Below are positions 12,121 to 14,442 of a DNA stretch of 15,052 nucleotides, in pieces. Source of the stretch: Nanobdellati archaeon (GTDB lineage: Archaea; B1Sed10-29; JAGVWA01); NCBI GenBank assembly GCA_018304505.1, contig JAGVWA010000016.1, forward strand, positions 1 through 15,052, given 5' to 3'. A model generated the notes under the pieces. The model made no database searches. It saw only the letters and a list, made by a program, of their open reading frames with translations, and was not told the DNA's origin. Every line of letters begins with the position of its first letter. Position 1 is the first letter of the stretch. The position numbers and the translations under genes were made by a program.

Positions 12121-12947
12121 ATTCTCTCGTCATCATCGACAAGCCCGCAGGACCAGCAAGCAACCAGGTGACTCAGTGGGTCAAGGAAATATTCAACGAA
12201 AAATCAACACACTGCGGCACCCTGGATCCGCAAGTCTCTGGCGTACTCCCCGTACTCATGGGAAACAAGGCAATCAAACTACAACCCTACTTGATGACCA
12301 GTGACAAGGAATACATCGTCCTGGCGAGGTCTGAAAAACCACTTCAAGAAACGGACATTCAAGGCGCGCTGCGCGAATTCACAGGCAAAATCTACCAAAC
12401 ACCCCCTGAAATCAGCGCAGTTGCAAAGAAAACCAGAATAAGGCAGATCTACGAAACAGAACTCATTGAAACCCAGGGAAATTATTTTCTCTTCCGCGCT
12501 GTGTGCCAGCATGGAACCTACATACGCAAACTGATCGAGGACTTATCACACGTCCTCGGAACCAAAGTAACAATGGAAGAGCTCCGAAGAACACGCACTG
12601 GGGCATTTACAGAACAGCAAGCCTATACCTTAACGAAAATCAATGACCTCCACGCGCTTGGGAGGGACTCATTAGTAACGCTGACACTTGAGCAGGCGGT
12701 GCAAAAACTGCCACGCATTGACATCAACACTAAAGCTGCAGAAAACATCGCCAAGGGCGCCGATCTGTACAACATCGGCATCATGGCCAAGAAGGGCAGC
12801 ATACAAAAGGGCACGCCCGTTGCCCTATTTCACGATCAACAACTCATAGCGGTTGGCGACGCGCTCTGCGACGAAACCCAGTTCAGTAAGCAGAAAGGAG
12901 CGGTCATCAAGACGAAAAAAGTTTTACAGGAGAAGGTGAACGAATGA
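12117..12947 (+). CDS. cbf5: tRNA/rRNA pseudouridine synthase Cbf5 (TruB family), short N-terminus
   Basis: Catalytic subunit of box H/ACA RNPs; archaeal Cbf5 makes pseudouridine in rRNA under guide RNAs and also U55 in tRNA. It has 276 residues. The catalytic Asp is D37 in HCGTLDPQVSGVLPV (32-46). KEY at 64-66 supplies the conserved Tyr, and QHGTYIRKLIEDL (131-143) contains the conserved Arg. RTRTGAFTEQQAYTL (158-172) matches the family. A PUA domain covers about 198-272. The protein starts directly at LVIIDKPAGPASNQV, so the roughly 40 residues that normally precede this motif in archaeal Cbf5 (total about 330) are missing. Starts in eL14 and ends in the next small gene are both ATGA overlaps. 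Confidence 0.92.
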   Translation: MNSLVIIDKPAGPASNQVTQWVKEIFNEKSTHCGTLDPQVSGVLPVLMGNKAIKLQPYLMTSDKEYIVLARSEKPLQETDIQGALREFTGKIYQTPPEISAVAKKTRIRQIYETELIETQGNYFLFRAVCQHGTYIRKLIEDLSHVLGTKVTMEELRRTRTGAFTEQQAYTLTKINDLHALGRDSLVTLTLEQAVQKLPRIDINTKAAENIAKGADLYNIGIMAKKGSIQKGTPVALFHDQQLIAVGDALCDETQFSKQKGAVIKTKKVLQEKVNE

Positions 12948-13096
12948 GCGAAACGCAAGCAAACGAATTAGGGCAAACATCAACCATGCAAACAACCCAA
13001 TCACAGCCAGAACCAAAAGCAACGGAGACTGAAAACGTTTGTCCAACATGTGGACTAGTTTTATACAACGATGGAACCTGCCCAACCAAACACTAA
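12944..13096 (+). CDS. Small zinc-knuckle protein coupled to Cbf5, function unknown
   Basis: A 50-residue protein. The start ATG overlaps the Cbf5 stop (ATGA, 12944-12947) and GGTGA at 12935-12939 is 4 nt upstream, so it is very likely translated. Residues 1-31 are polar low complexity (Thr, Gln, Glu, Pro). The C-terminal part, VCPTCGLVLYNDGTCPTKH (32-50), has C33, C36, C46 and the terminal H50 as a probable Cys3His zinc site. I do not recognise a family with certainty. The arrangement recalls the zinc ribbon of Nop10 (CPxCG...TCP), the small partner of Cbf5, but the Nop10 C-terminal helix is absent and the last pair is C-x3-H instead of CxxC. It is the last gene of the operon. Confidence 0.75.
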   Translation: MSETQANELGQTSTMQTTQSQPEPKATETENVCPTCGLVLYNDGTCPTKH

Positions 13097-13173: not shown

Positions 13174-13201
13174 GCCAATTCTGTAAATACTAAATTATAA
13201 T

Positions 13202-13306
13202 GCCGAGATCGCATAGCGGTATTGCGCAAGCCTGGAATTAATGCTCTAAGAAAACACAGACAGCTTGTCCCGCAAGGGATCGTGGGTTCAAATCCCACTC
13301 TCGGCG
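13202..13306 (+). tRNA. tRNA-Ser(GGA), intron-containing
   Basis: All arms can be drawn. The acceptor stem GCCGAGA (13202-13208) pairs perfectly with TCTCGGC (13299-13305). The D arm is GCA/TGC (13211-13213 with 13223-13225), with AGCGGTA in the loop including G18G19. The anticodon stem CAAGC (13227-13231) pairs with GCTTG (13263-13267). The anticodon is GGA at 13234-13236. The long variable arm TCCC/GGGA closes a GCAA tetraloop (13268-13279). The T arm is GTGGG/CCCAC around TTCAAAT (13282-13298). The class II variable arm, G73 discriminator (13306) and GGA anticodon agree on serine. CCA is not encoded. After removal of 13238-13261 the anticodon loop is a normal 7-nt CUGGAAA. A U13-U22 mismatch is the only oddity in the D stem. 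Confidence 0.95.
13238..13261 (+). other. tRNA-Ser intron at position 37/38 (24 nt)
   Basis: The anticodon stem halves are separated by 24 nt more than a normal loop. C13232-G13259, U13233-A13258 and G13234-C13257 form the central helix, with a G13235-A13256 mismatch. The two 3-nt bulges are then AAU (13236-13238) and ACA (13260-13262). Cutting both between the second and third base gives 13237/13238 and 13261/13262, the usual archaeal splicing geometry. The intron-internal helix is very weak, so this is a relaxed bulge-helix-bulge form. Confidence 0.85.
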
Positions 13307-13332
13307 TCAAAAGGCTGCGCCCTCTTGACACC

Positions 13333-13367: not shown

Positions 13368-13375
13368 TTAATATA
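13368..13375 (+). promoter_or_regulatory. TATA box for the swivel-domain gene, leaderless start
   Basis: TTAATATA is centred about 25 nt before ATG 13396, the distance at which archaeal transcription starts. The mRNA would begin at or within a few bases of the start codon, and there is no Shine-Dalgarno sequence (only GAGAAAA precedes it). This gene therefore has its own promoter. Confidence 0.6.
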
Positions 13376-13395: not shown

Positions 13396-14442
13396 ATGAT
13401 TATCAACGGAATGCCGGCAAGCCACGGCGTATTTACTGGCAAAGCGTACATTGCAACATACGAACACGAAGACATTGACAGCATTAGTGCCAACACTGTG
13501 CTTGTAGGAAAAAGTTTTTGGGTTGAAGACGACCTGCTGCTCTACAAGGCAAAGGCAGTAGTAACAGAAATTGGGGGACTGCTGTGTCATGCTGCAATAA
13601 TTTGCAGAGAACTCGGAAAACCATGCGTCGTTGGTGTTGATGACCTCTTGTCGCTTGTGAAAAATAATGACACAATAACAGTAGACGGAACAAACGGCAA
13701 CATAATACTTGAAAAAGAAGTAGGACGCCAGAGTTACGAAAATCCAGGCTACATCAATTTTATTGACAACATGAAAAAAGAACAATTCAAAGGCATAACG
13801 ATATTCACGGAAGAGTTCAACGGTAAACTGTACTTGTACTTTCCAAAAACAACAAAAGAAATCAAAGAAGCAGCAATAAAACACCTTGAGAAACAAAACC
13901 CTGGAATGAATATTCTTGAAGCAAAACCAAAACCCCCTGCGATAGTAATAGAAAAATACTCATACTTCAAAATCCACCTGGAAAACTTAGAAGACAAAGA
14001 ATATGCAAAGAATTATGATAAATCGTTGCAGCTAGCGCACGACTTGAACATAAAGGAAGCAAGAGAGTTCATACAACATGTGTACAAAAAGGCATACTCT
14101 CATTTACAAAAATGTCTGGAGTGCTACGAAAAATCGGACATGAAAAACACACGCAAGCACGTAAATCTCTATACCGGGTACTTTGAACAAATTTCTAAGG
14201 TCAGCATGGCCAAGAAAACATTTCAAGAACTAGAAAAGGGATTCATGAATCAGCAAGAGCTAGGGGCATTCCTCGTAAAAGCAGATGGGGAAGAAAAAAC
14301 CCCAAATAGAGAAAAAGAATTTGAGGTTTATGCATTTGTCAAGGAAGCCCTGAACAAGAAAAAAGAAGACATTAAGTTCGGAAAGAAGACCCTTGCAGAG
14401 ATGTTCGACAAAGCGTGCGAAAACGGGGTAAGGTTTGGTTAA
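13396..14442 (+). CDS. Phosphohistidine swivel-domain protein (PEP-utilising enzyme mobile domain) with unknown C-terminal part
   Basis: 348 residues. Residues 1-108 match the mobile phosphohistidine domain of PEP synthase, pyruvate phosphate dikinase and EI: GMPASHGVFTGKAY at 5-18, then AVVTEIGGLLCHAAIICREL (54-73) with phospho-acceptor His65, GKPCVVGVDDL, and the closing strand VDGTNGNIIL (96-105). The ATP-grasp domain and PEP-binding barrel that normally flank it are both absent. Residues 110-348 are not recognised. They include an alpha/beta stretch (about 132-195) and long charged helices with several Tyr and two close Cys (KCLECYEKS, 239-247). There is no signal peptide or membrane segment, so it should be cytosolic. 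It may carry phosphoryl groups for a separate kinase, or the domain may be used only for binding. The gene is more AT-rich than the operon before it. Confidence 0.85.
   Translation: MIINGMPASHGVFTGKAYIATYEHEDIDSISANTVLVGKSFWVEDDLLLYKAKAVVTEIGGLLCHAAIICRELGKPCVVGVDDLLSLVKNNDTITVDGTNGNIILEKEVGRQSYENPGYINFIDNMKKEQFKGITIFTEEFNGKLYLYFPKTTKEIKEAAIKHLEKQNPGMNILEAKPKPPAIVIEKYSYFKIHLENLEDKEYAKNYDKSLQLAHDLNIKEAREFIQHVYKKAYSHLQKCLECYEKSDMKNTRKHVNLYTGYFEQISKVSMAKKTFQELEKGFMNQQELGAFLVKADGEEKTPNREKEFEVYAFVKEALNKKKEDIKFGKKTLAEMFDKACENGVRFG

Follow-up and report, generated by a model that had tools for sequence, protein, structure and literature searches.

The swivel-C gene and its surroundings

The stretch of DNA under study (the window, 15,052 nucleotides) takes up all of contig C18 in a draft genome (G000; 0.92 Mb, 92.8% complete), and its gene content is archaeal, with a ribosomal protein operon, SecY, a Cbf5-type gene and an intron-bearing tRNA. 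The ORF listing places on the + strand an intact 348-aa ORF with an ATG start (13396..14442, including the stop codon), here named the swivel-C gene, which encodes an N-terminal phosphohistidine swivel domain, i.e. the mobile domain of PEP-utilising enzymes (residues 1-108; 13396..13719, + strand), and a C-terminal module (residues 110-348; 13723..14439, + strand). That the ORF is not a chance one follows from the presence in the same genome of one paralogue (contig C15) with 59% identity over the full length, and from a pN/pS of 0.31 between the two copies (dS being saturated); on this comparison, the window copy is under purifying constraint.

The gene comes after a tRNA-Ser(GGA) gene, and the contig ends 610 bases downstream of it. 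A TATA-like sequence read directly from the DNA, TTAATATA (13368..13375, + strand), lies about 25 bases before the ATG and is a candidate leaderless promoter; the window copy may have a promoter of its own. No radical SAM gene and no precursor-like ORF were found near the gene within the contig, i.e. up to the last of the 610 downstream bases.

The tRNA-Ser(GGA) gene (13201-13308) contains a 24-nt intron in the anticodon loop; it was overlooked by the default tRNA scan and recovered by Rfam, as well as by aragorn once introns were permitted. Further upstream, a 50-aa ORF (12944-13096) lies directly 3' of a pseudouridine synthase gene, and its end is zinc-ribbon-like, with a CxxC...C pattern (CPTCGLVLYNDGTC).

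The swivel domain and its histidine

An earlier note, made from the letters alone, had described the N-terminal part of the protein as a complete stand-alone mobile domain with the phospho-acceptor at His65, and the profile search bears this out: PF00391 matches residues 32-101 with E=1e-20 and 73.5 bits (curated cut-off, 23.1), and the codon of His65, the predicted phosphoryl acceptor (13588..13590, + strand), is intact within GGLLCHAAIICRELGKP. In the AlphaFold model of the full protein, built from three sequences, the swivel superimposes on that of rifampin phosphotransferase (5hv2) with a Z of 18.2 and 2.0 Å over 104 residues, residues 1-107 being the stretch that aligns.

Among the stand-alone swivels found in related genomes (see below), His65, Arg71, Glu72 and Pro76 are invariant in all 12 that were aligned, at identities down to 31%, and the phospho-acceptor His is also present in the other three; the conservation that the earlier note had proposed to look for is found in all homologues seen. 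Two positions before the His, the window protein has a Leu and not the regulatory Thr of PEP synthase. The same holds for the stand-alone proteins in general (Leu in 13 of 15, Ser in two), whereas 27 of 28 multi-domain proteins have Thr there. The residue immediately preceding the His is Cys, Ser or Thr in every copy. In a tree of swivel domains, the stand-alone ones group together, most branches being long and weakly supported.

The C-terminal module

According to the model, a small region of beta hairpin precedes the helices in the C-terminal module, and the label 'helical' previously given to it was accordingly nearly right. The other statement made about these approximately 240 residues, namely that they are unrecognised, stands: no match of residues 110-348 to Pfam or NCBIfam exceeds the curated cut-offs, and by the sequence and structure searches run they are unlike any known domain of PEP synthase or dikinases. 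Fold comparison with Foldseek and VIA-align of the C-terminal part modelled alone (pLDDT 81) returned no PDB match with an E lower than 0.17; the highest Z, obtained with designed helical proteins, was 7.4, which is below the level stated by the structure-comparison tool for helical proteins. The structure prediction that had been suggested as a check yielded a swivel like that of rifampin phosphotransferase and a C-terminal module without a confident fold match.

Several candidate identities were considered and set aside. Weak Pfam/NCBIfam matches to Peptidase_C2 (E 0.008), Ago_N_1 (E 0.02) and kynureninase (E 0.001) are below the cut-offs and mutually inconsistent; Foldseek and VIA-align gave no confident match, be it to a rifampin-binding domain or to anything else; and blastp and hhalign gave no kinship with the helical partners of other swivels or with archaeal helical-plus-swivel proteins. 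The module is proposed to be an acceptor- or partner-binding domain. Its distribution is narrow, since among 101 genomes it was found in G000 (two copies) and in one further genome of the same order (G004, one copy).

The swivel-C operons

The homologue in G004 is the only additional one detected in the 101 genomes, with about 33% identity overall and 29% in the C-terminal part. A single-protein query of GTDB contigs gave no swivel-C homologue, the swivel-C alignment used as a query retrieved from them just the G004 contig and a PEP synthase, and none was found in viral contigs.

Both the C15 paralogue and the G004 homologue have adjacent genes for a maturase-like enzyme and a precursor-like peptide, which the window copy has not. 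In the two operons the order is the same: a radical SAM gene, a gene for a Cys-containing peptide of about 50 aa and, then, the swivel-C gene, which comes directly 3' of the radical SAM gene apart from this short ORF. The G000 version of the latter has 48 aa and that of G004 has 50 aa; each is preceded by a strong Shine-Dalgarno sequence, and the two share the motif CxxxPCxGGCSA, the remainder having diverged. A degenerate DNA pattern for this Cys motif matches exactly these two sites in 19 genomes of the phylum, and its reversed control none.

As regards the radical SAM proteins of these operons, a PqqD-like element, the kind that recognises the leader peptide in RiPP clusters, is at most hinted at: the N-terminus of the G004 one matches PqqD with an E of 0.0084, below the cut-off, and the G000 one gives no match. 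Near the swivel-C cluster of contig C15 there is a further pair of genes (L079:7246-8673, - strand), of which the first encodes an 84-aa protein that looks PqqD-like, though lacking Pfam support, and the next is a second radical SAM/SPASM gene. Two radical SAM genes of G004 (L082:5144-6450 and L075:5216-6324) have a broken reading frame in the assembly, and the two clusters concerned are for this reason perhaps decayed or mis-assembled.

Stand-alone swivels and radical SAM genes across the phylum

Swivel domains were surveyed in 19 genomes of the archaeal phylum and their surroundings were then read. Outside PEP synthase and other PEP-barrel enzymes, 15 swivel proteins were found, 14 of them encoded by separate genes (most of about 110 aa, three of the swivel-C type) and one being a 652-aa fusion (L078) of swivel, radical SAM and SPASM domains in a single reading frame. 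A radical SAM gene lies beside, or overlaps, the stand-alone swivel gene in 10 of the 14 cases, including three of the four in G000. Taking the chance of a radical SAM neighbour as about 3%, an estimate from the 4 to 15 such genes per genome rather than a measured null, the binomial P is about 5e-13 over the phylum as a whole and 1e-4 when G000 is taken by itself. The swivel copies are related, so that the events are not fully independent, but their radical SAM partners vary widely in length and subfamily. The association of stand-alone swivel genes with radical SAM genes in this phylum is solid. Outside it, homologues of one type of radical SAM partner were not found beside swivels, and in 26 other archaeal genomes with at least two swivels no open frame shorter than 400 aa contained a match.

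The radical SAM partners belong to the sulfatase-maturase/PapB superfamily. The profiles that they match best are those of peptide maturases (CbpB, PapB, GrrM and others), with scores that do not reach the equivalog cut-offs, and there are also matches to the profiles of MoaA, NirJ and mycofactocin.

Candidate precursor peptides

A short ORF rich in Trp, Tyr and Asp, or in Cys, adjoins the radical SAM gene at all 11 sites, the putative peptides of the gene sets being of 32-51 aa; some of these ORFs were chosen by eye and their start codons are uncertain. Four of them, in G004, G015, G010 and on contig C15 of G000, have in common the motif GTW[IT]DTY or near variants of it, the first three preceding one radical SAM subfamily and the fourth another. 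In the phylum, W[IT]DTYG has six matches, three at swivel clusters and three judged to be due to chance. On contig C21 of G000, GGWEADGWEKDNWKSDSDGIDHWK is found between the swivel and radical SAM genes, and the gene for the fusion protein has a Cys-rich 51-aa ORF upstream.

Under a rule set in advance, which asked for an ORF of 28-60 aa in the 5' region with W, Y or C making up no less than 12% of its residues, such ORFs precede six of the 12 genes that contain a radical SAM motif and five of 99 control genes (p=1.5e-4). The Cys-containing peptides of the swivel-C operons fall outside this rule because they are located 3' of the radical SAM gene. The short ORFs are, on these statistics and on a partly manual selection, candidate precursors of ribosomally synthesized, post-translationally modified peptides (RiPPs).

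A possible source of the phosphate

As the earlier note had stated, the gene encodes no ATP-grasp (PF01326) or PEP-barrel (PF02896) domain, PF00391 being its sole family match. The orphan ATP-grasp or PEP barrel that it had proposed to search for in the genome did not turn up: in the 92.8% complete assembly there is exactly one ATP-grasp and one PEP barrel of this type, and both are found in an ordinary PEP synthase on contig C3. As no other domain of either type is encoded, the PEP synthase would, we infer, be the protein by which the swivels are charged in trans. The suggestion that phosphate comes from a separate protein, though deprived of an orphan donor in G000, remains plausible in the light of G007, a genome of the same order, in which, on one short contig, the gene for a helical protein separates that of a stand-alone swivel from that of a nearby, intact and likewise stand-alone ATP-grasp (319 aa). 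This helical protein is homologous over its whole length (E 1e-13) to the protein whose gene immediately follows that of the swivel in one of the radical SAM clusters of G000, and the G007 locus itself has no radical SAM gene. The invariance of His65, Arg71, Glu72 and Pro76, the absence of the regulatory Thr two positions before the His, which the published two-component dikinases share, and the G007 arrangement argue for a working phosphocarrier, although His65 could instead be kept for structure.

Other arrangements of these domains also occur. In another archaeon, genes for an ATP-grasp (356 aa) and for a helical-plus-swivel protein (623 aa) adjoin each other (L112:1224-4265), as in HpeHI or PpsAB; in other archaea (L113:4106-5350 and L114:2924-4165), 414-aa proteins have an N-terminal swivel and a PEP-barrel-like C-terminal part, and no ATP-grasp. 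The PEP synthase open frames of G007 (contig C38) and G008 (contig C21), of 1181 and 1056 aa, respectively, have their swivel matches interrupted at the catalytic His by approximately 1.2 kb, in the manner of an intein.

Proposed function and alternatives

The swivel-C protein is tentatively viewed as a split dikinase-type phosphocarrier serving peptide-modification (RiPP-like) clusters, with the window copy as an unlinked paralogue, a reading that is the best available and that may well fall short. The carrier would have been derived by splitting from the design of dikinases such as PEP synthase or rifampin phosphotransferase. His65 would receive its phosphate in trans, with the ATP-grasp of the single PEP synthase of the cell as the likeliest source and PEP at its barrel as an alternative, and would pass it on to a substrate that either the C-terminal module or a partner presents. 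In the linked clusters, the radical SAM/SPASM enzyme would modify the short precursor peptide, and the swivel protein would add a phosphotransfer step that either acts on the peptide or serves to activate it. The window copy would be a duplicate, now alone after a tRNA gene, and probably acting in trans on the same or a similar substrate. As regards the phosphorylation, its donor and acceptor, the RiPP product and what the window copy does, this scheme is a prediction from sequences and models. Against the proposal count the lack of linkage of the window copy, the lack in G000 of an orphan ATP-grasp or PEP barrel, the absence of detectable kinship between the C-terminal module and the helical partners of other swivels or archaeal helical-plus-swivel proteins, the possible structural role of the His, and the partly manual choice of the precursor ORFs.

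A broader formulation, which appears doubtful, is that stand-alone swivels are a recurrent part of an undescribed class of radical SAM RiPP clusters in an archaeal phylum with reduced genomes, in which a carrier charged in trans by PEP synthase would phosphorylate or activate the peptide, swivel-C being a three-copy family among them with a new acceptor fold. The literature covered, in which subscription journals were mostly out of scope, gave no paper pairing radical SAM enzymes with PEP-utilising mobile domains, or RiPPs with PEP-utilising proteins or PEP synthase, and, judging from titles and the beginnings of abstracts, none of those listed for RiPPs and phosphohistidine appears to describe the pairing. 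If correct, the proposal would mean that a phosphate shuttle of central metabolism has been recruited for peptide modification, that RiPP-like pathways are present in very small archaeal genomes, and that one PEP synthase may feed several stand-alone carriers. The gene sets, with a radical SAM enzyme, a 32-51 aa peptide and a swivel, and the natural swivel/radical SAM fusion are compact and can be tested.

That only one PEP synthase is available as donor would also suit a regulator, the phosphorylation state of the swivel reporting the ATP/AMP or PEP/pyruvate status and switching the radical SAM enzyme or, in the case of the window copy, another target. Swivels of unclear role do exist, e.g. 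as an additional domain at the C-terminus of certain pyruvate kinases (2e28, 3t05), and the lack of linkage of the window copy is consistent with such a function. However, overlapping genes, the swivel/radical SAM fusion and the variety of cluster types better fit a pathway component, and there would be no need for a genome to have several paralogous sensors, which makes this explanation unlikely. The occurrence of the close homologues in operons with radical SAM and precursor-like peptide genes points, indeed, to peptide modification rather than to a general sensor. The window copy may itself have a regulatory role.

The matches to MoaA, NirJ and mycofactocin profiles, and the fact that some SPASM enzymes make cofactors, raise the question of whether no peptide is involved and the protein belongs to an ordinary split small-molecule dikinase (an HpeH without HpeI), the radical SAM link reflecting a cofactor or small-molecule pathway. 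HpeHI and PpsAB provide precedents (PMC12167813), and the stand-alone ATP-grasp locus of G007 has no radical SAM gene, but the recurrence of precursor-like short ORFs beside the radical SAM genes and the different domain order, with the swivel first, render it improbable. Least likely is that the swivel is a docking domain or a radical SAM substrate (e.g. at the Cys, Ser or Thr before the His) instead of a phosphocarrier: peptide-type radical SAM enzymes often modify the product of a neighbouring gene, and both the superfamily of the partners and the residue before the His in all copies would be compatible with this, but PEP synthase and its kin also have Cys, Ser or Thr there (PMC12167813), so that the feature is ancestral, the surfaces have diverged to approximately 31% identity with no change in the His, Arg71 or Glu72, and better peptide substrates are encoded at each site.

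Comparison with known systems

With the radical SAM/SPASM RiPP clusters (PapB-, CbpB- and GrrM-like), the loci of homologous swivels share maturase-like genes and short precursor-like ORFs, whereas the maturases found here do not reach the equivalog cut-offs, the window gene has no such linkage, and no swivel or dikinase component of such clusters was found in the papers searched.

PEP synthase and pyruvate phosphate dikinase (PPDK) combine in one protein the ATP-grasp and the PEP barrel, neither of which is present in the window protein. Rifampin phosphotransferase (PMC4844700), which provides the closest solved swivel structure, differs in that its ATP-grasp, acceptor-binding and swivel domains are all parts of a single chain.

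The two-component dikinases HpeHI, CreHI and PpsAB (PMC12167813) resemble the window protein in joining the swivel to a second domain in one chain that lacks the ATP-grasp. HpeHI is a functional split dikinase, in which a change of the swivel His abolishes activity (PMC12167813). Thr is missing two positions before the His in both, with Met in the two-component dikinases (PMC12167813) and Leu in the window protein. In contrast, their swivel is C-terminal and that of the window protein N-terminal, G000 has no gene for an ATP-grasp partner, and kinship of the C-terminal module with their rifampin-binding domain was not detected, in searches that are weak with a three-sequence model.

Finally, when compared with the PF00391 mobile domain at large, the window protein has the same fold, the catalytic His in GGxxxH and the invariant R-E-x-x-x-P stretch, but it stands alone, with a new C-terminal module and with Leu in place of Thr two positions before the His.
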